DNA of 64,000 nt from Rhizohabitans arisaemae. GTDB taxonomy: Bacteria > Actinomycetota > Actinomycetes > Streptosporangiales > Streptosporangiaceae. The position numbers and the translations under genes were made by a program. The stretch is from positions 930,001-994,000 of the forward strand of contig NZ_BLRH01000035.1 in assembly GCF_025996515.1 (NCBI RefSeq). The letters are read 5' to 3'. This document shows, piece after piece, positions 39,683 to 55,259 of the stretch (positions are counted from its first letter, which is position 1; each line of letters opens with the position of its first letter). The notes below the pieces were generated by a model, which had not been told where the DNA came from, made no database searches, and was given only the letters and a program-made list of their open reading frames with translations.

Positions 39683-39698
39683 ACGCCGATATCGGCGT
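39683..39698. promoter_or_regulatory. perfect 16-bp palindrome before lanKC
   Basis: ACGCCGATATCGGCGT is fully self-complementary and lies 119 bases upstream of the LanKC start, between it and the sensor-kinase stop. It may be an operator of the lanthipeptide operon or a short terminator of the kinase gene. Confidence 0.45.
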
Positions 39699-39716
39699 AC
39701 CAGGGGAGAGCCGTGG

Positions 39717-40602: not shown

Positions 40603-41724
40603 TCACGGGAGCGGTACGGCGGGCACGCCCTCGTGGACCGCGGTCAGGCCCCGCGCGTAGAGGTGGCGGGCGAACCGCATGAGCGTCGCGAGGTGGGGGG
40701 TCCACAGCTCGCCCTGGGCGTCGCCGTCGAGGCCCGACTCCAGGTAGGACAGGAGCGCGGCGTCCCTCGTCGCGTCGTCCGGGAGCACCCCGTCCGGGCC
40801 CGGGCCGGCCGCCGCGACGGCCCAGCCGAGGGTGTGGCAGGCCAGGCAGAGCTCACGCAGGAACCGCAGGGCCCGCGGCGCCCGCCCGGGCAGCGGTGTC
40901 GGCAGCGGGGAGAGTTCCCTGGCCATGCCCATCACCTGTTCCCAGGTGACCCCGACCCGGGCCAGATGCGCCTGCCGGTCGAGCGGGCCCTCGACGGGGT
41001 CGCACAGCAGGGACTCGCCGAGGACGAACATCGGCCGGTTCGGGGGGTGCCACAGGACCGGCTCCGCACCGTTCTCCCGGTACCGCCCGGCGGGGTCGGC
41101 GAAGCAGACCGACCGGCGCAGGCCGTGGTGGTCGTTGCCGGCCAGGCTCGGCAGTTCGCGGTGGTCGACCAGGTTGGGCACCCGGAGCAGGGCGGGGTGG
41201 CCGTTCGGGGCGAGGAACTCGGCGAGTCTTTCGTCGTCGCCCCGCGAGCCGGGGTCGGGGCGGGTTCGGCACCACGCGGTGAACGCGTGCGCGACCTCGC
41301 AGGGCGCGATCACCGCGAGGGTGGGGAAGTACTCGTCCGCCGCCGCGACGACCCACGTGTAACCGGCGAGCAGCGCCACCCGGGAGGCCGCGCCGTTGGA
41401 GCTGACGGAGTTGGCGTACAGCGACAGCACCGCGTCGGGGAACCGCCGGGCCGCCCGCTCGGCCGCGGCCGGCAGGGACGGGACGGGCTCGACGTCGTCC
41501 TGGACGACCAGGTGATGCGTGGTCCCGTCCGGGCAGCGGGACCACGCCGCGAGCGCGGTGCGGAGCGGGTTCGGCGGGCCGTCGGGCTTCGGGTCGTAGA
41601 CGATCCCCGTCGCGTCCCCCAGCCGCTCGGCCAGGGCTTCGGCCGCCTCGGCCCGCCGGGGGTGGGCCATCACCGTGACGCCGACCGCGACGCGGCTGCC
41701 GTCAGCGCGCGGTGGGCTCGGCAT
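40603..41724 (-). CDS. GT-A glycosyltransferase-like protein
   Basis: A 373-residue soluble protein. The N-terminal half has a nucleotide-sugar transferase look: VAVGVTVMAHPRRAEAAEAL, then HHLVVQDDVEPVPSL with an acidic D-D-x-E in the place of a GT-A metal motif, and later ANSVSSNGAASR. The C-terminal half is helical and unplaced. I recognise only the fold tendency. Its ATG lies 23 bases inside the upstream unknown gene, so it is the last gene of a coupled set in the radical-SAM RiPP locus. Confidence 0.6.
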   Translation of the reverse strand: MPSPPRADGSRVAVGVTVMAHPRRAEAAEALAERLGDATGIVYDPKPDGPPNPLRTALAAWSRCPDGTTHHLVVQDDVEPVPSLPAAAERAARRFPDAVLSLYANSVSSNGAASRVALLAGYTWVVAAADEYFPTLAVIAPCEVAHAFTAWCRTRPDPGSRGDDERLAEFLAPNGHPALLRVPNLVDHRELPSLAGNDHHGLRRSVCFADPAGRYRENGAEPVLWHPPNRPMFVLGESLLCDPVEGPLDRQAHLARVGVTWEQVMGMARELSPLPTPLPGRAPRALRFLRELCLACHTLGWAVAAAGPGPDGVLPDDATRDAALLSYLESGLDGDAQGELWTPHLATLMRFARHLYARGLTAVHEGVPAVPLP

Positions 41725-43084
41725 AGGGCCCCGCCTCCCAGACGTCTTCGGGCGCGAGCCGGTCGAACAGGGACAGCAGCGAGCCGATCGCCCGTTCGAT
41801 CGCGCCCATCTGCTGGCGCATCGCCTCCGGCGGGGGTGCCTCCGCCAGATCGAGCCGGGCCGCCTCCTCGACGGCGAGCTGGGTGAAGGCGAGCAGCCCC
41901 TCCAGGGCGTGCCGGTGGGCGGGCAGGTCGGCCCGGATCCCCGGGTCGCCGTGCCGCCAGGCCCGCAGCCCGGTGCGGAGCGCCTGAACCTGCTCGAGCG
42001 CGGTCGGCAGGTCGGTGCCGACGAGGCTGTGGAAACCCATTCCCGCCATCGAGGCGACGCCCGGCGGCAGCAGGTCGAAGGCGCCGATCTGGCCGCGGAG
42101 GTACTCGGCGACGCGGGCGGTCTGCCGTTCGGCCCGAGCCAGGTCGGCGAAGTCCGCCGACGGCGTCTGCCCGGCCCGCGGCGGGACGGGGCCGGGCGTG
42201 GGGCGGGCGTGCCGGGGGTCGGCGTGCAGCCGTACGACGCGGCGCTTCTGGATGGGAACCGGCTCGCCGCCGCCGATCAGGGTGGCGACGATCATCTCGG
42301 TCATCTCCGCGGCGACCAGGTCGCCGGTCTCGGCGTCCACCTGGATGTACCCCAGGTAGGACGACCGCCCGTCCTGGGTGAGCGGACCGGCGCGCACGGT
42401 GAGCTCGCAGTCGAGGCAGGAGAAGGAGTAGACGGCGGTCGGCCGGTTGTCCGTGACCCCGTATCCGATCTTGGTCGCGGTCATCGGCGCGTTGCGGAAC
42501 ATGGCGCTGGTGGAGGGGTCGGAGAAGCGCATGTCCGCCCAGGTCCCGGAGATGCGTTCGAGTTCCGAAACGACCCCGAGGCGGTTCAGCCCGGGCGTGC
42601 CGGTCATCTGGGTACAGAGCATCTCGAAGGCGAGCACGTCCCAGGTGAGCATGAGGAGCAGGTCGACCGCGGGCGCCTTGGGCAGGTCGGGGTAGGCCAC
42701 CTGCACGGCGCCGGGTTCGGGGTTCTCCGCCGGGCCGGCGCCCGGCCCCTCGGCGACGCTGTGGGTGAGCAGGGAGTTGAACCCCTGCCCCCGCGCGAAG
42801 GTCCACTCCCGCCGGGGACCGGGGCCCTTGGGGCTGCCCGTCGCGGCGTGCACGCTCTGCCAGACGTAGCGGACCGGGACCGCGGCGGCCGAGCCGCCGA
42901 GTACCTCCCGGTCGACGACCCCGTCCACCTCCTGCCAGCGGTACGGCACACCGCGCGGGGTGAGGAAGTCGTTGCGCATCCGGACGTGCAGCCGGTACGG
43001 GAACTCCGGGTCGAGCCTGCGGCGCCGGCTGACCTGCGCTCCGGTCACCGCCGCGACGAGCTCGCCCGGGCCGCCCCCGCTCAC
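41702..43084 (-). CDS. unknown RiPP-locus protein
   Basis: A 460-residue soluble protein that I do not recognise. The middle has a beta-rich part with hydrophobic strands (VDLLLMLTWDVLAFEML, AVYSFSCLDCELTV, SSYLGYIQVDAETGDLVAAEM), and the C-terminal 130 residues are helical (ADLARAERQTARVAEYL onward). There is no signal peptide and no metal-binding cluster. The GTG start overlaps the stop of the glycosyltransferase-like gene (GTGA, 43081-43084), so it is translationally coupled. Context suggests an accessory role in making or tailoring the peptide. Confidence 0.65.
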   Translation of the reverse strand: MSGGGPGELVAAVTGAQVSRRRRLDPEFPYRLHVRMRNDFLTPRGVPYRWQEVDGVVDREVLGGSAAAVPVRYVWQSVHAATGSPKGPGPRREWTFARGQGFNSLLTHSVAEGPGAGPAENPEPGAVQVAYPDLPKAPAVDLLLMLTWDVLAFEMLCTQMTGTPGLNRLGVVSELERISGTWADMRFSDPSTSAMFRNAPMTATKIGYGVTDNRPTAVYSFSCLDCELTVRAGPLTQDGRSSYLGYIQVDAETGDLVAAEMTEMIVATLIGGGEPVPIQKRRVVRLHADPRHARPTPGPVPPRAGQTPSADFADLARAERQTARVAEYLRGQIGAFDLLPPGVASMAGMGFHSLVGTDLPTALEQVQALRTGLRAWRHGDPGIRADLPAHRHALEGLLAFTQLAVEEAARLDLAEAPPPEAMRQQMGAIERAIGSLLSLFDRLAPEDVWEAGPYAEPTAR

Positions 43085-44298
43085 AGCGCCCTCGCCACGG
43101 CGAGGAAGGAATCGGCCGGGGAGGCGAGGCGGCCAAGCCGTTCCCGGTAGTCGAGCTGGCGTTCGTACAGCTCGGTCCGGGCCGACATGTCGTCCAGCAG
43201 CGTGGTCATCTCGTCGAGGACTTTGCGGCGTTGCAGCACCCCCGCGGTGCGGAAGCAACCGGTGTAGGGGTTGTTCGAGAGCACCGGGGTGAGCAGGTCG
43301 TACCACCCCCAGGGGAACACCCGGAACGGGGTCATCGTGGTCAGCGTGGGCACCGCGGCGTCCAGCCAGGCGGGCGCCCCCACGGCGTGCCGGTGGTACA
43401 CCTTGTCGTTCTGCAGCAGCAGGGTGGGCACCCCGGCGAGGGCGGCCTGGGTGAGGGTGACCGACGCGGCGTTGGCGGTGATGAAGAGGTCGGCGCCGGT
43501 CAGCCGCTCGTGGAACGACGCCGGGGGAAGCTTGATCAGGTGCCGGTACTCGATCCGCTCGTCGATCGGGAAGTCCCAGGCGCGCGGTCCGACGTGCACC
43601 ACCTGGAGCGGGCGGCCCAGGGCGGCCAGGTGGCTGTGCACGATCCGCGGCATCGCGTGGATGAGCTGGTCCATCTCCGGGGAGTTGACGACGTTGACGT
43701 ACTCCCACGCGGAGTTGACCAGGAAGACCGTGGGCCGCCCGGTGCGGTCGCCGCCGGGGGCCGGGCGGACCGGGGCCGCGCCGCGCAGGCCGCCGCCGAT
43801 CATCGGGGTGACCGCGACGTTCGCCTCGCTCGCCGCGGGCCGGTTGAGCGGGCAGTTCCGGATCAGCAGGTCGCACTCCTCAAGGAGGCGGGGGAAACGC
43901 TTGCGGTAGCCGCCGTAGAAGTCGATGCAGTAGTCGGCCGCCCGCCAGTCGTACTGGTCGAACCCGGCCAGCGGCAGGTCGCCGTAGCGTTCCCGCAGCA
44001 GGCCGACGCTCAGCCCCGACCAGGAGGCCGAGTAGTTGAGGGTGAACGGGTCCGCGGCGACCAGGCAGTCCGGCCGGAAGTTCCGCATGATCGTGTCGAA
44101 CGTCGCCAGGTTGGCCTCGGGGGTCCCGGCGTCCAGGGGCAGGGTCGCCAGCCCCAGGTCCCTCAGTTGCGGGACCGCGTCCGGGGTGGCGACGAACCCG
44201 ACCTGGAACCGGTTTCTGGGTAACTGCCTGGCGAAGTCCGCGGCGATGCTCACATCGCCTTTGGACAGGTGGCCGAGGCCGAGGAAGAGCAGCTTCAT
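43081..44298 (-). CDS. glycosyltransferase-like protein (DUF6365-like)
   Basis: A 405-residue protein with a GT-B feel: the first strand MKLLFLGLGHLSKGDVSIAADFARQL resembles UGT-type openings, and a C-terminal Rossmann-like part contains GADLFITANAASVTLTQAALAGVPTLLLQND, where UGT enzymes bind the nucleotide sugar. It also carries FPWGWYDLLTPVLSNNPY. The same plan and the FP-x-GWY motif recur in the protein at 44576-45805, so the two are paralogues. I believe both fit DUF6365 but cannot check. AAGGAG precedes ATG 44298. Confidence 0.68.
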   Translation of the reverse strand: MKLLFLGLGHLSKGDVSIAADFARQLPRNRFQVGFVATPDAVPQLRDLGLATLPLDAGTPEANLATFDTIMRNFRPDCLVAADPFTLNYSASWSGLSVGLLRERYGDLPLAGFDQYDWRAADYCIDFYGGYRKRFPRLLEECDLLIRNCPLNRPAASEANVAVTPMIGGGLRGAAPVRPAPGGDRTGRPTVFLVNSAWEYVNVVNSPEMDQLIHAMPRIVHSHLAALGRPLQVVHVGPRAWDFPIDERIEYRHLIKLPPASFHERLTGADLFITANAASVTLTQAALAGVPTLLLQNDKVYHRHAVGAPAWLDAAVPTLTTMTPFRVFPWGWYDLLTPVLSNNPYTGCFRTAGVLQRRKVLDEMTTLLDDMSARTELYERQLDYRERLGRLASPADSFLAVARAL

Positions 44299-44575
44299 CG
44301 GGACTCCTTGAACATGGGTCGGCGCGGTCTTCCGGCGGTGCCGCGGCCACACCGGGGGTCTGCGGTTGCGGTACGGCCTGCCCGGCGTGTCGCCCGTGTG
44401 ATCGTTGTGGTGTCCGCACCCTGGGGGGTGCGGAGAGCGCAACGATCACCCCGTGCAGGGGACGGCCGGGCCGGGAGCCGTCCGCCGTACCGGGCGCCCG
44501 GGTGCCCGGACTCCGCCCGGACAGGACGGCGTGGGGTACGGCCTGCGGCGGGCCCGGCGCAGCCCGTACCGGCCC
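44299..44575. other. gap inside the RiPP locus with a cruciform repeat
   Basis: A 277-base non-coding break between the two paralogous glycosyltransferase-like genes. It holds copy 2 of the 52-bp palindromic repeat (44398-44449) and a copy of the recurrent GTACGGCCTGCGG motif (44536-44548). Otherwise no signal is seen; it may split the locus into two transcripts. Confidence 0.6.
44398..44449. repeat. 52-bp cruciform repeat, copy 2
   Basis: Begins GTGATCGTTG and ends CAACGATCAC, a perfect 10-bp terminal inverted repeat. The inner arms TCCGCACCC and GGGGTGCGGA pair as well, so the element forms an almost complete hairpin. Confidence 0.85.
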
Positions 44576-45805
44576 TCACCCGCGGGGTACGGCGATCCGG
44601 CGCAGGATCGTCTCCACGTCGGGGAGCCCGTTCAGGGTCCGCAGGTAGTCCTGCCGGGCCGCCTCCACCCGGTCGCGCCCGGGCCCCGGCGCGAGCAGGC
44701 CGACGAGCGTCTCCAGCCCGGCCTCCTCCCGGAAGACCTCGATCGGGGTGATCAGGGCGGCGAAGGGGTTGCCCGCGAGCAGGGAGCGCAGGAAGTGGTA
44801 CCAGCCCACCGGGAACATGTGGAACGGATAGGGCTCCCCGATCCGGGCGAACACCTCCCGCGCGGACTCCGACAAGGTGCCGTCGTCGGCGGTGAGGGAG
44901 TTGCGCACCACGGCCGAGGGGACGCCGCCGAGCGCCAGCCGGTGCAGGCTCACCGAGACGACGTTGTTGGAGACGTGCAGGTCGACGGTGCCGGCGAGTT
45001 CGGCGAAGCGGGCCGGGGCGAGCGGCCCCAGCGGGTGGTAGCCGGGTGGGGCCCCGTCCCGGAAGACGGGGGAGGGTCCCACCGAGACCACGTGGGCGTG
45101 CTCCAGGAGCGGGGTGAGCAGCCGTTCCAGCATCTCGGTGCACGCCTGGACGAAGGCGGTGACCCGGGGGTAGGCGGCGTGGCTGCGCTGCCAGGTCGCC
45201 CCGGCGACGAGGACGACGGGTTTGCCGTCGTCCAGGCCGAGCGCGGCGCGGATCTCGCGTGCGGGGGGTCGTGCCGTCGCGGGGGGTTCGGCGAGCAGCG
45301 GGTAGGGGAAGACGCCGGGCTCCGCGGGCGCCGTCGGGTGGTTGAGCGGGCAGGGTCTCAGCCGGAACGAGAGACCTTTGAGGGTGATCTCCCCTTCGTA
45401 GCGCGCCTTGAAGCCGTAGGTGTCCAGCCAGGCGCCCTCGCGACCCCAGGAGAAGTTGTCGAACGTGCCGATCGGGCATTCGAACACGTCCAGGTCGTCC
45501 CGGGTGAGGCCGTAGTGCCGGTCGCAGAAGTCGTAGTTGAGGAAGTCGGCGAGCACCACCAGGGCCGGCCGGTGGACGTGCTGGATGTCCGCGAGCTGGA
45601 TCCTGTTGATCTTTCCGGCCCCGGGGATGACGACGTGGTGGGCGAACCCGGCCTCGGCGACCGCTCCCCGGTGGGTCGGCGGGATCAGGAAGAGCGGGGT
45701 GAAGCCGGTGCCGCGCATCCGCCGGGCGAACTCGGTCGCGATGGCGAGTTCGCCGTGCGCCCAGAAGCTCGTGACGATGAACAGCACCACCCGGGAACCG
45801 CTCAC
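44576..45805 (-). CDS. glycosyltransferase-like protein (DUF6365-like), paralogue
   Basis: A 409-residue relative of the protein at 43081-44298. It begins VLFIVTSFWAHGELAIATEFARRM and has PVVLVAGATWQRSH, VDLHVSNNVVSVSLHRLALGGVPSAVV and FHMFPVGWYHFLRSLLAGNPF. The layout suggests a GT-B-like enzyme working on a nucleotide-bound or peptide substrate. The GTG start at 45805 overlaps the stop of the upstream gene (GTGA). Both paralogues in one RiPP locus point to two related transfer steps or a heterodimer; this is inferred. Confidence 0.68.
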   Translation of the reverse strand: MSGSRVVLFIVTSFWAHGELAIATEFARRMRGTGFTPLFLIPPTHRGAVAEAGFAHHVVIPGAGKINRIQLADIQHVHRPALVVLADFLNYDFCDRHYGLTRDDLDVFECPIGTFDNFSWGREGAWLDTYGFKARYEGEITLKGLSFRLRPCPLNHPTAPAEPGVFPYPLLAEPPATARPPAREIRAALGLDDGKPVVLVAGATWQRSHAAYPRVTAFVQACTEMLERLLTPLLEHAHVVSVGPSPVFRDGAPPGYHPLGPLAPARFAELAGTVDLHVSNNVVSVSLHRLALGGVPSAVVRNSLTADDGTLSESAREVFARIGEPYPFHMFPVGWYHFLRSLLAGNPFAALITPIEVFREEAGLETLVGLLAPGPGRDRVEAARQDYLRTLNGLPDVETILRRIAVPRG

Positions 45806-46482
45806 GGGATCGGGAACCGGCCGAGCGCGTCGCGGACCGCCGGCTGGTCCGGGTAGAGCTCCCGCATCATGGTGGCGATCAGCTCCCGCTCCGGCAGCGT
45901 GACGTCCATGTACAGCGCGACGAGCGGTTCGCAGAGGATCGCCCCGAGCGCGGGGTAGGGGACCCGGCTCCGCGGTCCCGCCTCCGCGGCCTCCCGGATG
46001 GTCTTCCCGACGTGGGCGGGGTCCCGGCCGTCCTCGCCCGGGGTGTGCGCGGCGAGGGCGTAGGCGCTGACGAAGTACGGCTGCCACGCCGCGGCGGCCT
46101 GTACCTCGATCAGCTCCTGCGAGCCCTCACCCGCCTTGTCCCGCTCCATGTCCAGGTAGGTCTTGTAGATCAGGGAGCTGGGGATCATCGTCCGGAGCCG
46201 GGCCCGGAGGTACTGGGCGAGCCAGTGCGCCGGGTCGGTGTACAGGATGTCGTTGAGCGTCTCCAGCGCCTCGTTGAAACTGGCGTGCTTCTCGAAGCCG
46301 GAGACGTCCGCCTGGAGCATGGCGACCACGGCCAGCGCGTAGGGGAAGGCCGCCTGGGGGTTCTCCCAATCCTCGGCGTACTGGTCGTTCAGCCGCTCGA
46401 CGAGGGGGTCCGCCCGGCCCAGTTTCGCCGCCACGACAATCGTCTGGAACAGGTTCTCGTCCGCCTGGGTGATCAGCCGCAC
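45802..46482 (-). CDS. helical RiPP-locus protein, unknown
   Basis: A 226-residue soluble, alpha-helical protein with a TPR-like flavour (FPYALAVVAMLQADVSGFEKHASFNEALETLNDILYTDP style repeats of paired helices). No catalytic motif is visible. It starts at ATG 46482, 19 bases after the radical SAM gene, and its stop overlaps the next start. It could be a scaffold or peptide-binding partner for the modifying enzymes. I do not recognise a family. Confidence 0.65.
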   Translation of the reverse strand: MRLITQADENLFQTIVVAAKLGRADPLVERLNDQYAEDWENPQAAFPYALAVVAMLQADVSGFEKHASFNEALETLNDILYTDPAHWLAQYLRARLRTMIPSSLIYKTYLDMERDKAGEGSQELIEVQAAAAWQPYFVSAYALAAHTPGEDGRDPAHVGKTIREAAEAGPRSRVPYPALGAILCEPLVALYMDVTLPERELIATMMRELYPDQPAVRDALGRFPIP

Positions 46483-46501
46483 TCTTCGCCCTTTCCGTGT
46501 C

Positions 46502-47410
46502 TCAGGTGGCCTCTGCGGGGGTGACCGGCTGGAACTCGTCCCACCCGATGAACTCCGCGTACTCCTTGTAGACGCCGCCGCAGCGGTCGTTGTGGACGCA
46601 GCCGTGGCAGCGCTGGTCCTTGACCCGGGTGAAGTCGTCCATGTACGACTCGTAGTCGTCGAGCACGAAGGTCCGGTAGAGCATCTTGAACTTGTTCTCG
46701 TCCCAGTCGAGCATGTACTGCTCGTAGCCGGGGATCGCGCAGTACGGGAAGCCCTCCATGGTGATCACGCTGCCGCGCCTGACCGCCCGGTCGATCGCCT
46801 CGAAGACGTACGGCTGGATCTCGTCGTAGCGCGGGGTGACGTCCCAGAAGTTGCGCAGCGCCGTGCCCGAGGTGTGCAGCGCCGAGATGTTCACGTGGTC
46901 GGCGCCGAGGTCCAGGCAGAGGTCGATGATGTCGGGCAGCTGGGTGTAGTTGTCCTTGCACACCACCGAGTTGGTGCGCACCCGGGCGCCCAGCTCCTTC
47001 ATGTGCCGGATGCCCTTGACCGCCTGGTCGAAGCTGCCCAGCGAGAGGCTGATCCGGTCCTGCACCAGCGCGGTCGCCCCGTGCATGGAGACGATGAACA
47101 GGCTGACGCCCTTCTCCACGACGGTCTTGGCGTACTTCATCTGGGCGAACTTGCGGCCGTTGGTCTGCAGGAAGACCGTCGGGTAGCCGAGTTCCCGGAT
47201 CTCGTCGAGGATCTCCAGGAAGTCCCGGCGGATCGTCGCCTCGCCCCCGTGCAGGTTGACCGCCTCGTACCCCTGCCCCGCGTGTTCCCGCAGGAAGCGC
47301 GAGACGCGCCTGCGGACGATGGTGTCCTCCTTCATGAAGGGGGAGTCGACGATGCAGAACGTGCACTTGCTGTTGCAGATGTCGGTGAGGTGGATGCTGA
47401 GTGCCTTCAT
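46502..47410 (-). CDS. radical SAM peptide-modifying enzyme
   Basis: A 302-residue radical SAM protein. The cluster-binding CNSKCTFC (CxxxCxxC) starts at residue 12, followed by the GGEAT SAM-binding motif. Near the C-terminus is a second Cys set, CHGCVHNDRCGG, like a shortened SPASM/twitch auxiliary-cluster domain. Enzymes of this build make carbon-carbon, thioether or epimerised residues in ribosomal peptides. It starts three bases after the precursor stop, the usual place for the enzyme that acts on that precursor. Confidence 0.88.
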   Translation of the reverse strand: MKALSIHLTDICNSKCTFCIVDSPFMKEDTIVRRRVSRFLREHAGQGYEAVNLHGGEATIRRDFLEILDEIRELGYPTVFLQTNGRKFAQMKYAKTVVEKGVSLFIVSMHGATALVQDRISLSLGSFDQAVKGIRHMKELGARVRTNSVVCKDNYTQLPDIIDLCLDLGADHVNISALHTSGTALRNFWDVTPRYDEIQPYVFEAIDRAVRRGSVITMEGFPYCAIPGYEQYMLDWDENKFKMLYRTFVLDDYESYMDDFTRVKDQRCHGCVHNDRCGGVYKEYAEFIGWDEFQPVTPAEAT

Positions 47411-47413
47411 GAC

Positions 47414-47725
47414 CTACCCCTCAAGCTCGTCCTTGTCGTACATCTCATAGCCCTGGTTGACGAGGTGCGCGTCGTCGGGCGTGTACACGGCGGAGCCCAC
47501 CTCGAAGTACTCGTCGAGGTTCTGCGGCGTCAGCTTCGCCAGGTCGTCCTCGTCCAGGCTGCGCAGGAGCAGCGTCTGGACGTCGGTCAGCTCGTACTCG
47601 GCCAGCGCGGTGTCCGGGTCGTTCAGCAGCAGCTCGCCGAAGGCCGGGTCGGCGATCGCCCGTTCGAGAACCACTTTGATCTCGGTTCGCTCGGCGGGGA
47701 TGTGGGTGAGGTCTTGGTCGGTCAC
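47414..47725 (-). CDS. RiPP precursor with NHLP/Os1348-type leader
   Basis: A 103-residue protein. Residues about 15-70 follow the nitrile-hydratase-like leader pattern (LERAIADPAFGELLLNDPD, ALAEYELT, LLLRSLDEDDLAKL). The remaining 33 residues, after EYFEVGSA, would be the core: acidic, free of Cys and Trp, with Tyr81, Tyr93 and Tyr96, His87 and Met95. Such Os1348-type proteins are precursor peptides beside radical SAM or other maturases. The GTG start has GAAGGG upstream. Which residues are modified cannot be told from sequence. Confidence 0.8.
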   Translation of the reverse strand: MTDQDLTHIPAERTEIKVVLERAIADPAFGELLLNDPDTALAEYELTDVQTLLLRSLDEDDLAKLTPQNLDEYFEVGSAVYTPDDAHLVNQGYEMYDKDELEG

Positions 47726-47749
47726 GTTCTGCCCTTCGGTTCGTGTCGG

Positions 47750-49513
47750 CTAAATGGGTGCCAAGCTCTCGCCCGTGAACCGGGCCGGGGCGGACACAGG
47801 CTGGTCCCGGCGCATGTTGAGCACCTGCCAGGCGTCCATGAAGTCGTTGCTCTGGATCGCGTTGAGCCGGGCGATCTTCGGGGAGACGGCCTCGGCGAGC
47901 TCCTCGGCGGTCCGCCCGTCGATCTCGTCGAACTCGTAGACGCGGAAGTTCTGCGGCCGGTACGAGTGGTCGAGGTCGTTCGCCAGCCAGCGGTAGTTCG
48001 CGTCCAGCAGGCGCTGGTAGGCGTCGGGGAACTTGCGCAGCCGCATGCCGTACGCCTCGGGTTTGGCGCCCATCAGCGACTTGGGGGCGACGAAGTAGCG
48101 GTTCACGTTGAAGTAGTTGATGGTGTCGGCGTTTCGCTCCAGGAAGCCCGCCGTCTCGTCGAAGCACTCCTCGTCCTCGTGCGGCAGCCCGGTGATGATC
48201 TCCAGGTCGGCCCAGATGCCGATCTCCTTGCACCACCTCAGCACCTGCTCGGCCTCGGCCAGCTTGACCCGCTTGTCGATGACCCGGAGCATCTTGGTGC
48301 TCGCGGTCTCCAGGCCGAAGGTGAGTTTGCGGCAGCCCGAGTCGTGCAGCAGCGCCAGCCGCTCGTAGGTGAGCCCGTTGAAGCGGGCGCAGTCCGACCA
48401 GTGGAACTTCACCCCGTGCAGCACGACCCGGCTGGCGAACTCCTCGACGAAGCCGTTGATCAGGTTGAAGTAGTTGTTGAACAGATAGAAGTACGGCGTG
48501 CCGTACTTGGCGGACATGCCCGCCATGTGCTCGATGACCTCGTCGACCTTGGCGTGCACCAGCTTGGTGCGCTCCAGGCTCTCGGTGCAGAACGCGCAGG
48601 AGTACGGGCAGTTGTAGTTGAAGACGTACGGCAGGACGAGCCGCCCCTCGAACCCGTTCCCGGCGTTCGCCGCGTTCGCGTCGTTGGCGACCCAGCTCAG
48701 ATAGGCGGGGAACCGATAGAGCTGCATCAGGTTCCACATCTCGTCGGTCTCCCGCTTGCGCGGGCTCGCCTCCGGGCGGTGCCGGACGAAGTTCGCGTAG
48801 TCCTCCAGGCGCAGCCCGTCCAGGTCGGGGGGGATGATCCGGTGGATCGCGTCGGGCGCCCGCAGCACCCGGTCCCCGCGTACCCGGGCCACCCCGGGCC
48901 ACGTCGTCGCCATCGGTACGGCCGGACGGCCGCCGGCCAGGGCGAACACGGCGTCGACGGCGGTGTCCTCGCCCGGCCCGGTGATCAGGTAGTCGAACTC
49001 CTCGACGCACGCCGACCACCAGCTGTGGAAGGCGTCCTTGAACTGCATGAGGTAGTCGAGGTTGTTCCCGCCCATGATGATCGGCTTGCCGTAGTGCCGC
49101 TTGACGTGCGAGGCGATCACGGCGGCCGAGTGCATCTCCATCCAGGAGAAGTCGCCGCCCGCCGACACCCCGACGACGTCGGCCCCGTCGATGTCCTTGC
49201 CCGCCAGCAGCCGGGCCGCGAAGGCGTCGAAGAACTCGTTCGCGCCGCCCCGCACGTAGGAGATCACCGCGCGTTCGTCGTAGAACGGGCGGAGGTCGGT
49301 CTTGGTGAACTCCTTTCCGTGCCACATCCGGGAGAAGTCGGAGTTGAGGTCGTGGTGATCCACCTCGATCCCGGCCGCGCGCATGCTCCCGGCGACTACA
49401 CCGGGACCGAACGGCGGCAGGTTCATCCGGGTGAACATGGTGTGCTCGCCGGGCGCGTCCACGATAAGCACCCGTGGCGCGGGCCGGCCCGATTGGATGA
49501 TCTCGGCTGTCAT
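47750..49513 (-). CDS. B12-binding-type radical SAM enzyme
   Basis: A 587-residue enzyme. The first 200 residues have a cobalamin-binding-like Rossmann layout (RVLIVDAPGEHTMFTRMNLP, DVVGVSAGGDFSW, KPIIMGGNN, ITGPGEDT), lacking a clear DxHxxG motif. The radical SAM core follows with CPYSCAFC near residue 305 and EIITGLPHEDEE. Similar enzymes methylate or rearrange unactivated carbons. It lies 24 bases upstream of the precursor on the same strand, so it probably acts on it or on the attached sugar. Confidence 0.87.
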   Translation of the reverse strand: MTAEIIQSGRPAPRVLIVDAPGEHTMFTRMNLPPFGPGVVAGSMRAAGIEVDHHDLNSDFSRMWHGKEFTKTDLRPFYDERAVISYVRGGANEFFDAFAARLLAGKDIDGADVVGVSAGGDFSWMEMHSAAVIASHVKRHYGKPIIMGGNNLDYLMQFKDAFHSWWSACVEEFDYLITGPGEDTAVDAVFALAGGRPAVPMATTWPGVARVRGDRVLRAPDAIHRIIPPDLDGLRLEDYANFVRHRPEASPRKRETDEMWNLMQLYRFPAYLSWVANDANAANAGNGFEGRLVLPYVFNYNCPYSCAFCTESLERTKLVHAKVDEVIEHMAGMSAKYGTPYFYLFNNYFNLINGFVEEFASRVVLHGVKFHWSDCARFNGLTYERLALLHDSGCRKLTFGLETASTKMLRVIDKRVKLAEAEQVLRWCKEIGIWADLEIITGLPHEDEECFDETAGFLERNADTINYFNVNRYFVAPKSLMGAKPEAYGMRLRKFPDAYQRLLDANYRWLANDLDHSYRPQNFRVYEFDEIDGRTAEELAEAVSPKIARLNAIQSNDFMDAWQVLNMRRDQPVSAPARFTGESLAPI

Positions 49514-49519
49514 GACGGT

Positions 49520-50698
49520 TCAACCTTTCCCGGCAGGCAGCGATGCGATGAAAGAGGCCGCGGCGTCCAGCGGCGCGGTGGTTGCCAGCTCGGCGGCGAA
49601 CTCCCGCGCCGCCTTTCGGTAGTCCGGGTCCCCGCAGACCGCCTCGATCGCCTCGCCCAGCCGCTGCGGGTGGATCGTCGACGGGTCGAGCGCGATGCCG
49701 AGGCCCAGTTCGGCGCAGCGGCGGGCGATGTACCCCTGATCGCCGGTGATCGGCACCAGGACCAGGGGGAGTCCGCGGATCAAGGCCCGGCCGACGGTCC
49801 CCCACCCGGCGTGGCTGACCACCGCCGCGCACCGTCCGAACAGCTCCTCGTGCGGGACGGGCCCGGACGGCCGCAGGTTCGCCGGGAGAGGCCCGAGGAC
49901 GGCGGGGTCCGTCGCCGCGGGCAGGGTCAGCACCGCGTCCACGTCGAGCCGCCCCACCGCGGCGACGACGGCGCGCAGGTACCGGTCCTGCGCGCCGGCC
50001 CGGCCGCCGAGGGAGGCGCGGGACGCGGTGCTCGTGGTGACGGCGATCGTCGGCCGGCCCCCGGCGTCCGGGGCGGGGGGCGCCGCCGGTCCGGGGGTGA
50101 GCGGTCCGGTCAGGCGGACGTGGCCGGGAAGCGTGTGGGCTCCGGCGAAGCCCGGGGTGGTGGGGATCAGATGCAGGTACGGCGAGATCCGCCCGAGCAG
50201 GTTGGTTCCGTCGGGCGGCAGCCCGAGCTCGTCCCGGGCGGGCGCCGCGTCGAAGTGCCGGGCCGTGTGGGGCGGGATGAAGGCGAGGTGGGAGTCGAGG
50301 GCGGGTACCGGGGTGCACGCCAGGGAAGCCCACGGCAGACCGGCCAGTTCGGCGGCGAGACCGGCCCCGGGGGCGAACACGTCGCCGACGACGACCTCGG
50401 CGTCGACGCGCTCGGCGGCTTCCAGGACGTCGTGGGTCATGTGGGTGACGGAGCCGAAGAACCGGTGCCGGAAGAGTGCGGCGCCGTCGCCCGTCGCGAG
50501 TGTCCCGGGCGGGATCGGTTCGCGGGAGCGCCAGCGTGCCGGGGTGAGGACCCGCAGTTCCGGGGCGATCCGCGAGGCGGCTTCGGGTTCGGCGAAGACG
50601 GCGACCCGGTGGCCGTGCGCGCGGAGCCGGAGCCCGAGCGCGCTCATCGGCTCGGTGTGCCCGGGCTCGCCGTAGGGGACCAGCAGCAGCCGGCTCAC
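49520..50698 (-). CDS. UGT/MGT-type glycosyltransferase (GT-B)
   Basis: A 392-residue enzyme of the macrolide/erythromycin-type glycosyltransferase group. It opens with VSRLLLVPYGEPGHTEPMSALGLRL and ends with the sugar-nucleotide signature region VSHAGWGTVGRALIRGLPLVLVPITGDQ. It should transfer a sugar to a small molecule or modified peptide. The GTG start overlaps the stop of the nucleotidyltransferase gene (GTGA, 50695-50698), linking sugar activation and transfer. Confidence 0.88.
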   Translation of the reverse strand: MSRLLLVPYGEPGHTEPMSALGLRLRAHGHRVAVFAEPEAASRIAPELRVLTPARWRSREPIPPGTLATGDGAALFRHRFFGSVTHMTHDVLEAAERVDAEVVVGDVFAPGAGLAAELAGLPWASLACTPVPALDSHLAFIPPHTARHFDAAPARDELGLPPDGTNLLGRISPYLHLIPTTPGFAGAHTLPGHVRLTGPLTPGPAAPPAPDAGGRPTIAVTTSTASRASLGGRAGAQDRYLRAVVAAVGRLDVDAVLTLPAATDPAVLGPLPANLRPSGPVPHEELFGRCAAVVSHAGWGTVGRALIRGLPLVLVPITGDQGYIARRCAELGLGIALDPSTIHPQRLGEAIEAVCGDPDYRKAAREFAAELATTAPLDAAASFIASLPAGKG

Positions 50699-51477
50699 GG
50701 TCGCGGCTCCGCCGGTTCGAGGAGGGTCCTGGCGCGCATCAGGTTCGCCGGGGTGCCGATGTCGAGGAACTCCCCGTCGTCGAAGGGGAGGCCGAAGACG
50801 CGGATCCCGACGCCGATCGCCTCGTTGAAGACGTCGCTGAGGAGCGACTCCGGCCGGCCCGTGCCTCGGGGGAGCCGAGCCAGGAAGTCGTGCAGGAGTT
50901 CGGTGAAGGCCGGGGACCAGACGGCGATGCCCCAGGTGTTGGCGACGGGGGCCACCGCGGGCTTGTCGACGACGGCGAGCGCTCTGTGGGTGGCGGGGTC
51001 GATGACGACGGGGGCGAGGGATTCCGGCTGGGCGGTGGGGAAGAGCCCGAGGCTGAGGTCGGCGTCGCGGGCCTCGTGGAAGTCGAGCAGCCGGGCGAAG
51101 CAGTCGGAAGGGGTGACGATGGTGTCGGGCATCCCCATGCAGACGGTGCTTCCGGCGACGAAGGGCCGGGCCAGGTCGAGGGCGTGCGGCATCCCGCGGG
51201 GCTCCTCCTGGCAGAGGTAGCCGAGGGCCAGCCCCAGTTGGTCGCCGCCGCCGAGGTAGCGCAGGACCTCCCATTTGGCCGGGGAGACGATGACGAGGAC
51301 GTTCTCCACGCCGCCGCCGCGGAGGGCGTGCAGGATGTGGTCGATCGCCGCCCGGGGGGCGAGCCGTCCGTCGCCGTCGGGCTGGTAGCCGATCTGGATG
51401 AGCTCCTTGGGTGCCCGGTACGGCCACAGGCGGGAACCGAGCCCTGCGGCGGGCACGACTCCGAACGCTCTCGCCAT
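50695..51477 (-). CDS. sugar nucleotidyltransferase
   Basis: A 260-residue NTP-transferase of the glucose-1-phosphate thymidylyl/uridylyl group, shown by VVPAAGLGSRLWPYRAPKEL at the start, PRGMPHALDLA and DDGEFLDIGTP near the end. It makes an NDP-sugar for the glycosyltransferase encoded downstream. ATG 51477 with AGGGAG upstream is the first gene of the leftward RiPP operon. Which sugar and nucleotide it uses is not shown by the sequence. Confidence 0.85.
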   Translation of the reverse strand: MARAFGVVPAAGLGSRLWPYRAPKELIQIGYQPDGDGRLAPRAAIDHILHALRGGGVENVLVIVSPAKWEVLRYLGGGDQLGLALGYLCQEEPRGMPHALDLARPFVAGSTVCMGMPDTIVTPSDCFARLLDFHEARDADLSLGLFPTAQPESLAPVVIDPATHRALAVVDKPAVAPVANTWGIAVWSPAFTELLHDFLARLPRGTGRPESLLSDVFNEAIGVGIRVFGLPFDDGEFLDIGTPANLMRARTLLEPAEPRP

Positions 51478-51704
51478 GCGGACTCCCTGGGACGGTACGC
51501 GGGTTTGCACCGTTCCGTACGGCGGGTGCCGGGAGCCGGTGCTCAGGGGCTGGATCTTCTCCGGAAGCGTAAGCTCCGGCGTCCGTGGTTTTGTTGTGGT
51601 GATGTTGTGGTCGGCTTTATCGGTGTTCACGCACTAGCTCGGGTTCTGACTGGTTGTTACGGTCTGGGCAAACGCATCGGCGACATCGGGAAAGCAGGTC
51701 GCGC

Positions 51705-52592
51705 ATGACGGGAGCAGTGTCGGTGTCCCCGCAGGTGAGCGTGGTGTTGCCCCTGTTCGGCAGCCACCGCGCGGTGCAGACCCTGAGGGCGGTGAGCCTG
51801 GCCTGGCTGGCTCAGGACGTCGCGTGCGAGGTGGTCGTGGGCGCCGCGCCCGAGACGCCGGTCGGCGCGCTGGCCGACTTGATCCGTACCGGCAGACTCC
51901 GCGTGGTCCGGACGGAGCCGGGGGACCAGGCCCCCGGGCGGCTCCGCAACCTCGCGGTGCGCTCGGCCCGGGCGCCCGTGCTCTACCTCAGCGACGGGGA
52001 CGTCGTCCCGCTCGGATCGAACTACCTTCGCCGGGCCTTGGAGGTCCGCGAGGACGCGGTGTTCGTCCAGCCCTGGATGTACCGCCTGGTCGACCCGGGC
52101 GGGTACGAGCGGGTGACCTGGCCCTCACCCGGACGCGGCCGGATCTGCTTCGTGACCGACGACGGCGCCGGCGGCCTGGCCAGGCTCACCGGTGAGCGGT
52201 TCGCCTGGCACGGTTCGCTGCTCATGGTCCAGCCGCCGCCGGAGGCCGGCTACGAGGAGGACTCGCCGGAGATGTACTGGCGCTCGCCCTACCACTGGGG
52301 CGGGGTGCTGGTCGACCGGTCGCTCTTCGACGAGGTGGGCGGATACTGTCCCCGGTACGTCGGGTGGGGGTGCGAGGACGACGACCTTCTGGTCAAGCTC
52401 TCCGGCCGGGCGCGCCTGCTGCGGGGCTGGCGCGGCGCCCGTGCCCTCTCCTGCCTGCACTTCGAGCACCCCCGCACCTACCGGGGCGCCGGCCTCGACG
52501 CCAACCGGGCGCTGCTGGCGGACCGGGTCGCCTCGGGCGCCGAGCAGATGATCAAAGAGGACCTCGCCGCCGGCGCGGACACCGTGCCGTAG
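51705..52592 (+). CDS. family 2-like GT-A glycosyltransferase
   Basis: A 295-residue soluble protein with the GT2 pattern: VSVVLPLFGSHRAVQ at the start, the metal site YLSDGDVVPL, and the C-terminal VGWGCEDDDLLVKL acidic ED motif followed by HFEHP, as in chondroitin/polypeptide GalNAc-type and related enzymes. It is divergent from the nucleotidyltransferase gene by 227 bases, so it probably shares regulation with the RiPP operon. It may add the second sugar. Confidence 0.85.
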   Translation: MTGAVSVSPQVSVVLPLFGSHRAVQTLRAVSLAWLAQDVACEVVVGAAPETPVGALADLIRTGRLRVVRTEPGDQAPGRLRNLAVRSARAPVLYLSDGDVVPLGSNYLRRALEVREDAVFVQPWMYRLVDPGGYERVTWPSPGRGRICFVTDDGAGGLARLTGERFAWHGSLLMVQPPPEAGYEEDSPEMYWRSPYHWGGVLVDRSLFDEVGGYCPRYVGWGCEDDDLLVKLSGRARLLRGWRGARALSCLHFEHPRTYRGAGLDANRALLADRVASGAEQMIKEDLAAGADTVP

Positions 52593-53277
52593 CCGGACCG
52601 CGGCCGAGCCGACCCGGGCTCCCGCCGAGGATTCGGTACGGCCTGAAGGCCTGTCTCGAAGTCAGGTACGTGCGACGGCCACAGCTCCGGCACCGTTCGC
52701 GTGATCGTTGCGCTGTCCGCACCCGCCGGGGTGCGCATTCCACAACGATCATGCGGGTGCCGTACCTGCCTCGGATTCCCCGAAGGTCGCCGGGGTCGGC
52801 CCGGTGCCGCCTTCGTACCCGGTGATCGTTGCGCTGTCCGCACCCGCTGGGGTGCGCATTCCACAACGATCATGCGGGTGCCGTACCTGCCTCGGATTCC
52901 CCGAAGGTCGCCGGGGTCGGCCCGGTGCCGCCTTCGTACCCGGTGATCGTTGCGCTGTCCGCACCCGCCGGGGCGCGCATTCCACAATGATCACGCGAAC
53001 CGGGTGCGGCCGTGGACCCGACGGGGCCGCCCCCGCCGTACCGGATCCACGACACGGTGCATGGGCCGGGCCGGGACGCCGCGCCCTCGTCGCCGGAACG
53101 CAGCCCCTACCACCACACACAGGCTGCGTCATTCGGGTCCGGGGCGAGGAGCGGGGCGCCGTCGGGGATCCGGTACGGCCTCAGGCGGCCCTACCCGGCG
53201 GCGCGGCGTCCCGGCCTTGGCGCGAACCGCGTCGCCCCGCGGCCGGACACGTGATCGAATCGGACGTCGCGGCCGGC
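52593..53277. other. 685-base non-coding region with tandem repeats
   Basis: Between the GT-A gene and the ABC-2 permease stop. Contains the 121-bp tandem array (52701-52994) with three cruciform cores. Outside the array only variants of the GGTACGGCCT motif are seen (52634 and 53172). No coding sequence is supported; open frames here are made of repeat sequence. Confidence 0.7.
52701..52994. repeat. 121-bp tandem array with three 52-bp cruciforms
   Basis: Three copies of the 52-bp palindrome at 52701-52752, 52822-52873 and 52943-52994 with an exact period of 121 bp. The 69-base spacer (beginning GCGGGTGCCGTACC) is repeated almost without change. Each 52-bp unit begins GTGATCGTTGCGCTGTCCGC and ends CAACGATCAT, or AATGATCAC in the last. 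Differences between units are one to three bases. Confidence 0.92.
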
Positions 53278-54339
53278 TCAGATGTCGTTCCACCGGAACA
53301 GCCAGACCGCCAGAGTGGTGATCACGGCGGCGAACCCCAGCAGGATGCCGAGCTCGGGGAGGATCGCGGCGGGGTCCAGCCCGCGGGCCAGGGAGTCCAG
53401 CATCCCGGTGTTGAGGTGCCGGAGCGGGAAGACCTCGGCGACGTTCTGGAGCCACTGCGGGGCCATGGAGAGCGGGAAGAACGAGCCGGAGAGAAACGCC
53501 ATCGGAATGACGATCAGGTTGGAGACGGCGTTGGCCGTCTCGACCGATTTGGCCTTCGCCCCGGCGAGCAGCCCGATCGCGAGGAAGGCGAGGGTCCCGG
53601 CGAGGATCAGCGGGATCGAGGTCCACCAGTGGCTCGCCAGTTTCAGCCCGAAGAACCCCACCGCGACGGCGAGGAAGATCACGGTCTGGGCGAGCGCGAT
53701 CCCCAGGCTCACCAGGACCCGGGCTCCGGTCACCGCGGGGAAGCGCACCGGGGTGAGGGTGAGGCGGCGCAGGATCCGCTTCTCCCGCCACAGGACCAGC
53801 GTGGAGGCGGCGGTGAAGGTGGCTCCGGTGGCGATGGCCCAGCCGAGGATGCCCGGGGTGAGGTACTGGATCTGCGGCAGCGCCTTGTTCTCCACCTGGT
53901 TCAGGGTCAGGGAGAATCTGGGAGGCTGCCCGGTGGTCGCCAGGTTGGCCGCCTGGATGATCCCCTCCATGACGCTGCGCACGATCCCGGACGAGGTGGT
54001 GTCGGCGGCGGAGAAGTGCATGACGACCTGGTCGCCCCGCTGCTGGACCGCCGCCGCGGCGTCGCCGTTGCGCACCTGGGTCAGGGCCTGCTCGGCGTCG
54101 TCCAGCCGGGAGATCTGCAGGACCTTGTCGACCTCCGCGCGGCCCTGCGCGGGGAGCAGGTCGATCATGGGGACCGCCCCGATCGTGATCAGCCTCGACT
54201 GGGGTGCGCCGCCGGACTGGAAGAGCCCGCCCATGATGATCAGGAAGATCAGCGGAAACAGGATCGTGAAGAACATCGCGGCACGATCCCGGACGAAGCC
54301 AAGGAACATGATCCGAGAAAGGGTGGGAAAGCCCCTCAT
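53278..54339 (-). CDS. ABC-2 type transporter permease
   Basis: A 353-residue permease. The first helix (about 22-42, FFTILFPLIFLIIMGGLF) is followed by a roughly 140-residue extracytoplasmic domain and then five helices (from ILGWAIATGATFTAA), as in YhgE/DrrB-type exporters. It partners the ATPase gene upstream, with which it overlaps by ATGA (54336-54339). It probably exports a small molecule or peptide; the nearby RiPP locus is the obvious candidate source, but this is inferred. Confidence 0.9.
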   Translation of the reverse strand: MRGFPTLSRIMFLGFVRDRAAMFFTILFPLIFLIIMGGLFQSGGAPQSRLITIGAVPMIDLLPAQGRAEVDKVLQISRLDDAEQALTQVRNGDAAAAVQQRGDQVVMHFSAADTTSSGIVRSVMEGIIQAANLATTGQPPRFSLTLNQVENKALPQIQYLTPGILGWAIATGATFTAASTLVLWREKRILRRLTLTPVRFPAVTGARVLVSLGIALAQTVIFLAVAVGFFGLKLASHWWTSIPLILAGTLAFLAIGLLAGAKAKSVETANAVSNLIVIPMAFLSGSFFPLSMAPQWLQNVAEVFPLRHLNTGMLDSLARGLDPAAILPELGILLGFAAVITTLAVWLFRWNDI

Positions 54340-55259
54340 GCCCGGTACTCCCGTCCGGTGAGTTCGAGAAAGACGTCTTCCAGGGTGGCGCCGCGCACCG
54401 AGAGCCCGGTGAGGGCGTTCTTGCCGGCCAGCACCGACAGCACCCCGGAGGGATCCTTGGTGGCGATGGTCAGCGACACCTCGTCCTCGCCGACCTCGGC
54501 GTCGGGGAAGAGCCCGGCGGCCTCCTCCACCGGCAGCGTGCCGGCCCGCACGGCGATGCGGGTGGCCGAGCCGAGGCCGCGGACCAGCTCCGCGGGCGGC
54601 CCGGACTCCAGGATCCGCCCCCGGTCCATGATGGCCACCCGGTCGCAGAGGATCTCCGCTTCGTCCAGGAAGTGCGTCGTCAGCACCACCGTCTTGCCCT
54701 GGCCGTTGATGTCGCGCAGGACGTCCCACAGATTGCGCCGGGCCTGCGGGTCCAGGCCCGCCGTGGGCTCGTCCAGGAAGACGATGTCCGGGTCGTGGAC
54801 CAGCGCGCACGCGATGGAGAGCCGCTGGGCCTGCCCGCCGGAGAGCTGTTCCACCCGGTTGCCCGCCTTCTCCGTCAGGCCGAACCGCTCCAGCAACTCG
54901 TCGGCCACGGTCTGGGGGACCCCGTACAGCGAGGCGAAGGCGCGGAGCTGCTCCCGCGCGGTGAGGCGTTCGAAGAACGAGGAGACCTGCATCTGCACGC
55001 CGAACCGCGGCAGCAGCCGCGGATTGCGCGGCCAGGGGGACAGGCCCAGCACCCGGATCTCCCCGGAGTCCGGCTCACGCAGCCCTTCGATCATCTCCAG
55101 TGTCGTCGTCTTCCCCGCCCCGTTGGGTCCGAGGATGCCGAAGAACTCCCCCGTCTCCACTTCGAGGGAGACGCCGTCCACCGCGTGGGTGTCGCCGTAT
55201 CGTTTACGGACGTCTTTGACCACGATGGCGCGGTCGGCCGGCTCGTGGGGTTCCTGCAT
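54336..55259 (-). CDS. ABC-2 transporter ATP-binding protein (DrrA-like)
   Basis: A 307-residue ATPase with Walker A GPNGAGKTTT, signature LSGGQAQRLSIA, Walker B IVFLDEPTAGLD, switch His in VVLTTHFLDEA and a C-terminal extension typical of DrrA-type exporters. It starts at ATG 55259. It forms an exporter with the overlapping permease and is followed upstream by a SARP regulator gene on the same strand. Confidence 0.93.
   Translation of the reverse strand: MQEPHEPADRAIVVKDVRKRYGDTHAVDGVSLEVETGEFFGILGPNGAGKTTTLEMIEGLREPDSGEIRVLGLSPWPRNPRLLPRFGVQMQVSSFFERLTAREQLRAFASLYGVPQTVADELLERFGLTEKAGNRVEQLSGGQAQRLSIACALVHDPDIVFLDEPTAGLDPQARRNLWDVLRDINGQGKTVVLTTHFLDEAEILCDRVAIMDRGRILESGPPAELVRGLGSATRIAVRAGTLPVEEAAGLFPDAEVGEDEVSLTIATKDPSGVLSVLAGKNALTGLSVRGATLEDVFLELTGREYRA

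Follow-up and report, generated by a model that had tools for sequence, protein, structure and literature searches.

What is made by a locus in which a small, Cys-free precursor-like protein lies between two radical SAM enzymes and is surrounded by several putative sugar-transferring proteins? This is the question raised by positions 40603 to 52592 of the window, the 64,000-nucleotide stretch of the Rhizohabitans arisaemae genome that was analysed here. We consider it somewhat more probable than other readings taken singly or together that the genes specify an undescribed RiPP class, in which radical chemistry is directed at a five-residue motif, AVYTP, and a pair of DUF6365 proteins carries out the glycosylation. 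An earlier note, made from the letters of the sequence, had delimited the locus and listed its open reading frames. Codon-position GC bias and homology indicate that the genes are real at the coordinates given below, although several of the frames then listed were over-long, such as the 724-aa frame at 41702, and their true starts lie later. The precursor, two radical SAM genes, a nucleotidyltransferase, a UGT, two DUF6365 genes, GTx, U226 and U464 form a single run on the minus strand. On its start side the precursor gene is 24 bp from the radical SAM gene at 47750-49513, and 3 bp separate it from the one at 46502-47410. The nucleotidyltransferase and UGT genes overlap by 4 bp, as do DUF6365-b and U464, and U464 overlaps GTx by 23 bp; the remaining gaps are of 3-24 bp, with the exception of 277 bp between both DUF6365 genes.

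The genes within the limits first drawn were confirmed, but related genes run past 52592, and the locus probably reaches about 57557, taking in an ABC exporter and a regulator. The exporter consists of a DrrB-like ABC-2 permease (53278..54276, minus; 63% relative in L027) and a DrrA-like ATPase (54336..55259, minus; relatives of 64% in L026 and 71% in L027), and it is followed by an AfsR-like SARP/BTAD regulator (55488..57557, minus; PF03704) with homologues in four other type-A loci, as defined below. On the other side, a class III lanthipeptide (AmfS/SapB-type) cluster occupies 32.9-40.4 kb on the same strand, with 178 bp between GTx and its histidine kinase gene, and one might suppose that all these genes belong together. 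This is very improbable, as no LanKC homologue was seen when the loci of six relatives (L005-L009, L013) were compared with all window proteins, and two precursor genes already belong to the lanthipeptide cluster. Membership of that cluster was accordingly rejected: the present precursor is without Cys, and the LanKC gene sits in the neighbouring cluster with its own precursors.

Whether the genes travel together was judged from loci gathered by the 302-aa radical SAM enzyme alone, one locus per genome being taken at its best match (L006 is the L012 contig and L007 the L014 contig, and each pair was counted once). The enzyme was found in 17 genomes, in each case with a DUF6365 gene adjacent. 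Ten of these loci, termed type A, combine the long precursor, the radical SAM enzyme, U226, at least two DUF6365 genes and U464, and nine of the ten also hold the second radical SAM enzyme. The other seven, type B, have no U226, no U464 and no long precursor; a shorter NHLP peptide is present in four, and none was detected in L013, L014 (a 7.4-kb contig) and L038. It should be noted that the two types were drawn up from gene content once the loci were known, and that any count of ten in ten holds partly by definition. The real test of co-occurrence, which the earlier note had put forward as a way to refute its reading, is the absence of mixed loci: the full set is present in ten of the 17, seven are without it, and not one is mixed with respect to U226, U464 and the long precursor, so the gene set does co-occur with the precursor. 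Assignment of DUF6365 proteins as a or b in the individual loci follows their best matches. Besides the window's genome, the type-A hosts are six genomes from the family to which Micromonospora sonchi belongs and three from the class that includes Clostridiaceae M8S5, a spread from actinomycetes to Clostridia; since L026 nearly duplicates L008, they represent about nine independent loci. Distant relatives of the enzyme in Elusimicrobia (L042-L044) and in G1245 (L041) were left out, with no DUF6365 in the stretches read. Nine weak loci (L015-L019, L021-L024; 20-29% identity) were left out of one 17-locus search as other radical SAM enzymes, and the three annotated loci among them gave no match to DUF6365, the precursor or the nucleotidyltransferase. 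Apparently this is a rare and undescribed bacterial pathway that has been kept together in distant bacteria.

The precursor (47414..47725, minus; 103 aa, no Cys) had been read as an NHLP-leader peptide flanked by two radical SAM genes, and profile searches agree with this: it scores 40.6 bits against NF038399, the Os1348-family NHLP model (cut-off 40), and both flanking proteins match PF04055. Among the seven type-A precursors scanned, that is, all except those of L026, L039 and L040, six reach the NF038399 cut-off, the window's included; the other five score 42.6-50.9 bits, and L020 falls below at 37.8. None of the four type-B peptides does so (24.9-34.7 bits). A chance open reading frame is ruled out by the homologues in ten loci and by pN < pS in comparison with four relatives. 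An NHLP/Os1348-type leader covers residues 16-72, the invariant AVYTP residues 79-83, and an acidic tail follows. In the alignment of the ten precursors AVYTP is the one place where invariant residues adjoin one another. Moreover, Tyr81 and Thr82 are the only hydroxyl-bearing positions past the end of the leader match (residue 72) that are present in all ten. To judge from the alignment, this points to the five residues AVYTP as the conserved target, rather than to the C-terminal 33 residues as the core that was first suggested. The core could instead be the variable acidic tail, and when 19 invariant positions are placed at random, 1.2% of the placements contain a run of five.

The small protein might also not be the product itself, but a carrier or chaperone on or beside which a sugar-bearing product is built. 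Such a role would resemble that in PEARL-like systems, where a peptide serves as the scaffold on which the product is built, or that of a recognition partner. Conservation that is not confined to the leader but extends along the entire protein (63-64% identity to L008 and L009, 45% to L020) would fit this possibility, as would the three of seven type-B loci in which the trio of radical SAM enzyme, DUF6365 and nucleotidyltransferase occurs without a small protein. We nevertheless think it unlikely, given that variation is found at the very N-terminus and in the acidic tail, on either side of one invariant block, that the leader's family carries an NHLP-clan RiPP-type annotation, and that two radical SAM genes directly flank the precursor in the window.

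Modification of the AVYTP segment, as we favour, would fall to the radical SAM enzymes. The 302-aa enzyme (46502..47410, minus; PF04055 70.6 bits, above cut-off) carries the CxxxCxxC motif at C12, C16 and C19, and C224, C268, C271 and C277, also invariant among 12 sequences, likely hold an auxiliary cluster. Its partner U226 (45802..46482, minus) is conserved with it, and their copy numbers are equal in all ten type-A loci (1/1 in four, 2/2 in six); U226 looks TPR-like by eye only, the match to a designed TPR protein being at chance level (E 0.93). The second enzyme (587 aa; 47750..49513, minus; PF04055 56 bits, above cut-off) has its motif at C302, C306 and C309, invariant in four sequences, and is probably of the methylcobalamin type, although its score of 15.4 bits on the B12-binding model PF02310 is below the cut-off (32.1). 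Its nearest NCBIfam models are ApyD, PhpK and rSAM_ocin_1, all far under their cut-offs, and a search of the plasmid collection gave no match. The genome of L027 gave no match to it at E 1e-20, yet the precursor there retains AVYTP. That the changed tail of L027 reflects this loss was considered and dropped, as L039 and L040 keep the enzyme despite tails unlike the window's.

The closest solved relative of the 302-aa enzyme is cytosylglucuronate decarboxylase (E 2.2e-17), whose substrate is a nucleoside sugar. The enzyme might thus act on an NDP-sugar or sugar acid, the locus being chiefly a sugar pathway with the peptide as aglycone, and its association with DUF6365 in 17 of 17 loci and with the nucleotidyltransferase in 15 of 17 could be understood in the same way. 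On the other hand, HxsC4 and the His-Xaa-Ser maturase HxsC are the NCBIfam models that match it best, at scores far under their cut-offs, L020 and L040 retain it with no nucleotidyltransferase detected, and in L041 a distant relative has an NHLP-like open reading frame about 6 kb off and no DUF6365. We regard a sugar substrate as quite improbable and retain the peptide as the target of radical chemistry.

How, then, would sugars be attached? The two paralogous proteins that had been described as glycosyltransferase-like both prove to be DUF6365 (PF19892), far above the cut-off of 32.5 bits: DUF6365-a (44576..45790, minus) at 255.3 and DUF6365-b (43081..44298, minus) at 185.1. We know of no function given to this family, including in Pfam, and propose that of glycosyltransferase as its first. 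The structural evidence comes from a model of DUF6365-a alone, which predicts a GT-B fold (pLDDT 87; Foldseek E 7.8e-11; VIA Z 21.1 over 329 aligned residues, rmsd 4.0). The fold as such shows no function, as UDP-GlcNAc epimerases share it and are matched as well as UGTs are, at Z of about 21. Sugar transfer, as predicted, is supported by the context of another deoxysugar cluster (L035), where two DUF6365 proteins are found beside an NDP-hexose 2,3-dehydratase. In a tree, DUF6365-a falls in one lineage and -b/-c in another, and the family also occurs without the 302-aa enzyme, in G096.

The other sugar genes are less uniformly distributed. The UGT and the sugar nucleotidyltransferase were correctly recognised: the former (49520..50698, minus) matches the EryCIII-like C-terminal domain PF06722 (85 bits) and is present in six of ten type-A loci, and the latter is of the RmlA-like sugar-1-phosphate type (50695..51456, minus; PF00483, 51.6 bits) and was found in all seven type-B and eight type-A loci (the L028 copy at just 29% identity, E 4e-6), L020 and L040 being the type-A loci in which it was not found. 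The supposed GT2-like enzyme is a divergent GT2/GT7C-like protein (51717..52592, plus) above the cut-off for Glyco_transf_7C (PF02709, 30.5 bits), with homologues beside L008 and L026. GTx (40603..41724, minus) matches the glucosyltransferase family phrog_854 (E 3.9e-12), has a 49% homologue in L027, and gave no Pfam match and a weak PDB match to a guanylyltransferase (E 0.0065). The two proteins that the earlier note had left as unknowns keep that standing: neither U226 nor U464 (41702..43084, minus; present in ten loci) matches NCBIfam or PHROG, U226 has no Pfam match, and that of U464 is at chance level (E 0.019). A model of U464 from four sequences (pLDDT 75) predicts a beta-sheet domain and a C-terminal helical domain; its likeness to the lipovitellin N-sheet (Z 14.6) was set aside as a guide to function, being weak and resting on a four-sequence model.

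What the analysis shows is which genes are present and that they co-occur, the fold predicted for DUF6365-a and the invariant motif; from these we infer the reactions, their order, the sugar site, leader removal, export, the product and its function. The NHLP-type leader would present the AVYTP segment, at which the 302-aa enzyme and U226 would introduce a radical-based change, and the second, probably cobalamin-dependent enzyme would probably C-methylate the same segment. The nucleotidyltransferase may supply an NDP-sugar where no housekeeping enzyme serves; the two DUF6365 enzymes would then attach sugars, most likely at or beside Tyr81/Thr82, and the UGT, GTx and the GT2-like enzyme may add lineage-specific ones. 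The DrrAB-like exporter would secrete the product and the SARP regulator control the locus; the locus proteins that were scanned include no recognised protease. That modification enzymes adjoin the precursor and are conserved with it (10 of 17 radical SAM loci) is consistent with a RiPP, as is the occurrence of the enzyme trio with other NHLP peptides in four of seven type-B loci; in the remaining three no such peptide was detected, so that the trio may have another target. If our reading is right, an NHLP peptide with AVYTP, the 302-aa enzyme, U226, two DUF6365 proteins and U464 mark a RiPP class, DUF6365 gains its first proposed function, and one can test whether a single conserved five-residue motif is acted on by both radical SAM chemistry and glycosylation.

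The combination had been thought to match no named RiPP class, and indeed we found no characterised pathway with the same gene set in Pfam/NCBIfam names or, among the matches listed, in PMC open-access full text. Proteusins are made from NHLP/Nif11-leader peptides with a long core by radical SAM epimerases and C-methyltransferases. The window shares with them an NHLP-type leader, a radical SAM enzyme and a probable B12-dependent one, but has DUF6365 proteins and one short conserved motif in place of the long core. Assignment to the proteusins was rejected, as the PoyD-type model TIGR04517 has a cut-off of 325 bits, the two radical SAM enzymes score at best 128.6 and 75.4 bits on any NCBIfam model, and the precursor alone hits TIGR04517, at 14.5 bits. 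Persiathiacins, reportedly glycosylated thiopeptides, are perhaps a further case of a glycosylated RiPP with radical SAM chemistry, besides mycofactocin. The Os1348 cluster of Pseudomonas sp. Os17 has a precursor whose leader belongs to the same NCBIfam family; in the portion of the source available its partner genes are a predicted acetyltransferase, a peptidase and a SagB-type dehydrogenase, and the terms 'radical SAM' and 'glycosyltransferase' are absent from the main text (PMC7726476). Among NCBIfam models the second radical SAM enzyme scores highest on ApyD of the aminopyruvatide pathway, which according to the accessible part of its description makes beta-methyltyrosine (PMC10635010), but it reaches 75.4 bits against a cut-off of 750, and unlike in aminopyruvatide no P450 or MNIO family is among the matches of the locus proteins.

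Few RiPPs seem to combine glycosylation with a radical SAM enzyme in their making, and mycofactocin, for which the consulted part of the source describes a ribosomal precursor with a Val-Tyr core in MftA, a radical SAM enzyme and a glycosyltransferase, is one (PMC7491314). It offers a partial precedent, one that the earlier note did not mention, in that Val-Tyr lies within AVYTP and radical SAM chemistry is paired with glycosylation. The window does not encode mycofactocin itself: its radical SAM enzyme scores 68.3 bits on the MftC equivalog TIGR03962 (cut-off 265), the 103-aa precursor has Val80-Tyr81 internally, not at its C-terminus, two DUF6365 proteins stand in place of MftF, a second radical SAM enzyme is added, and models for MftB, MftD and MftE are not among the matches listed for window proteins. 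A closer parallel, which we put forward tentatively and think doubtful, is that AVYTP is the whole product: the two radical SAM enzymes would C-methylate its Val-Tyr(-Thr) and cross-link or cyclise it, the DUF6365 pair would glycosylate it, and it would be excised. In that event the locus would yield a second, independent mycofactocin-like Val-Tyr metabolite, small, conserved and glycosylated, and kept the same in actinomycetes and Clostridia despite drift in the remainder of the peptide.

The earlier note had placed a Cys-free, NHLP-leader precursor between two radical SAM genes, amid sugar-transfer genes mostly on one strand, and both descriptions hold. On the minus strand of the window, within a genome of 8.3 Mb, a run of ten genes starts at 51456 and ends at 40603, in the order nucleotidyltransferase (50695-51456), UGT-type glycosyltransferase (49520-50698), second radical SAM enzyme (587 AA, 47750-49513), precursor (47414-47725), 302-AA radical SAM enzyme (46502-47410), U226 (45802-46482), DUF6365-a (44576-45790), DUF6365-b (43081-44298), U464 (41702-43084) and the glucosyltransferase-like GTx (40603-41724). 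Intergenic spacing is -23 to 24 bp, with the sole exception of 277 bp between the DUF6365 genes. A GT2-like glycosyltransferase gene (51717-52592) is divergent from this run, and beyond it lie two ABC exporter genes (53278-55259), followed by the gene of a SARP regulator (55488-57557).

The 302-AA enzyme is rare and scattered. Searches of overlapping whole-genome samples (thresholds 1e-30 to 1e-50) found it in 4 of 297 genomes of the window's family (and, in a sample of 345 from the order, in those four again), 6 of 300 from the family of Micromonospora sonchi, 2 of 220 from that of Streptomyces cellulosae, 3 of 216 from the class of Clostridiaceae M8S5 and 1 of 394 from the window's class, this one being the window itself. 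A genome-contig search returned 17 loci, eight of them close relatives, of which two were contigs already found in the family sample. Samples and contig search together give 17 distinct genomes with the enzyme. Separately, an Elusimicrobia genome (L042-L044) carries two contigs with arrays of distant paralogues (21-35% identity), with no DUF6365 or NHLP matches found in the stretches read, and L041 holds an NHLP-like 100-AA ORF (13533-13835) ~6 kb from a distant relative, in a stretch where no DUF6365 was found.

Sorting the loci of these 17 genomes, one per genome, by gene content gave ten of type A (the window, L008 of Catellatospora bangladeshensis, the nearly identical L026, L009 of M. sonchi, L020 of Clostridiaceae M8S5, L025, L027, L028, L039 and L040) and seven of type B (L005, L010-L014 and L038). 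Every type-A locus has a long precursor, the 302-AA enzyme, U226, two or three DUF6365 genes and U464; the second radical SAM enzyme occurs in nine, the nucleotidyltransferase in eight (a weak match in L028), an ABC ATPase in seven (flanking genes being under-counted where loci are cut) and the UGT in six. All seven type-B loci combine the 302-AA enzyme with DUF6365, a nucleotidyltransferase and a SPASM-type radical SAM enzyme, and all lack U226, U464 and the window-type second enzyme. Four of them have a shorter NHLP peptide and four a polysaccharide-pyruvyl-transferase-like protein (PF04230 confirmed for the L012 member); searches of L013, L014 and L038 turned up no NHLP peptide, and these three share a TPR-like protein of ~130 AA instead. 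As the types were named once gene content had been seen, their significance lies in the absence of mixed loci (0/17). The co-occurrence of gene set and precursor that had been proposed as a check is thereby borne out, in 10 of 17 radical SAM loci.

Several features of individual loci deserve mention. L027 has no second radical SAM enzyme, none being found in its genome at E 1e-20, and has an NRPS-like gene and a DegT aminotransferase nearby; its precursor keeps AVYTP with a different tail. The clostridial L040 encodes, in addition, five small radical SAM-like proteins in a row (10505-15285; three assigned by similarity, two from a Cys motif on visual inspection), and its B12-type enzyme is present in two copies. 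The unusual 277-bp gap in the window, where neighbouring DUF6365 genes of L008, L009 and L025-L028 instead overlap by 4 bp, contains one copy of a ~51-bp palindromic repeat, GTGATCGTTG...CAACGATCA (44398-44449; others at 52701-52755, 52822-52876 and 52943-52997), which has 112 strand-matches across the genome (48 forward, 64 reverse; reversed control 0) and no match in the other genomes' loci compared. Adjoining the locus is a class III (AmfS/SapB-type) lanthipeptide cluster (32900-40424) with two ABC transporters, LanKC (36946-39564; NF038151, 1098.8 bits) and a tandem pair of identical 44-AA precursors (36568-36702 and 36773-36907).

The 103-AA precursor has no cysteine and scores slightly above the cut-off of the Os1348-family NHLP model. 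Alignment of the ten type-A precursors leaves 19 invariant window positions, among which A79-V-Y-T-P83 is the only run of at least two; because 1.2% of random placements of 19 among 102 positions give a run of five, this run taken alone is suggestive, not proof. As read from the alignment, Y81 and T82 are the only hydroxyl positions shared by all ten past the end of the leader match (residue 72). The tail is acidic and varies in length and sequence, and whole-gene pN (0.20-0.28) is below pS (0.39-0.45) against L008, L009, L025 and L027.

The 302-AA enzyme has CxxxCxxC and four more invariant cysteines (12 sequences). Its best NCBIfam relatives, all far below cut-offs, include HxsC4, HxsC, MoaA, PqqE and MftC; among solved structures, cytosylglucuronate decarboxylase and PqqE come closest to it. 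Each of the ten type-A loci has as many copies of U226 as of this enzyme (one of each in four loci, two of each in six), so U226 is probably its partner. The second enzyme resembles ApyD, PhpK and RiPP C-methyltransferases (NCBIfam); its B12-binding domain scores 15.4 bits, which does not establish cobalamin binding. Since ApyD is reported to make beta-methyltyrosine (PMC10635010), Tyr81 would by analogy be an attractive candidate target.

Both DUF6365 proteins belong to PF19892, a family without assigned function that is named nowhere in the open-access literature searched. The model of DUF6365-a (16 sequences, pLDDT 87) has a GT-B fold with antibiotic glycosyltransferases as top Foldseek matches; its VIA Z of ~21 is the same to UGTs and to UDP-GlcNAc 2-epimerases, so that the modelled fold by itself cannot tell a transferase from an epimerase. 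Genomic context favours sugar transfer: among 200 genomes of the window's family PF19892 occurs in four, three being counted radical SAM loci and the fourth, G096, having no match to the 302-AA enzyme, and there two DUF6365 genes (L035, 8059-11784) sit in a deoxysugar cluster that also encodes an NDP-hexose 2,3-dehydratase, a DegT aminotransferase, an epimerase and a KedN5-family B12 radical SAM C-methyltransferase. In a midpoint-rooted tree that left out L026, DUF6365-a (9 sequences, support 0.89) forms a lineage separate from -b/-c (12, support 1.0); by best hits, L026 has both kinds.

The likeliest mechanism, all of whose chemistry we infer, is that the two radical SAM enzymes would modify AVYTP on the leader-bound peptide, that the DUF6365 pair would then glycosylate it, with UGT, GTx and the GT2-like enzyme also contributing in the window's lineage, and that the ABC pair would finally export the product. 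The gene set is conserved, rare, RiPP-like and apparently undescribed: no description of the pathway was found in open-access text, and the earlier note could not match the combination to a named RiPP class. The candidate undescribed RiPP locus stands, with stronger support, from a conserved, rare gene set in relatives, than sequence alone could provide. Identity with mycofactocin was rejected, as those of its defining features that were tested are lacking in the locus; mycofactocin (PMC7491314) is the closest precedent for radical SAM chemistry combined with a sugar on a Val-Tyr core.
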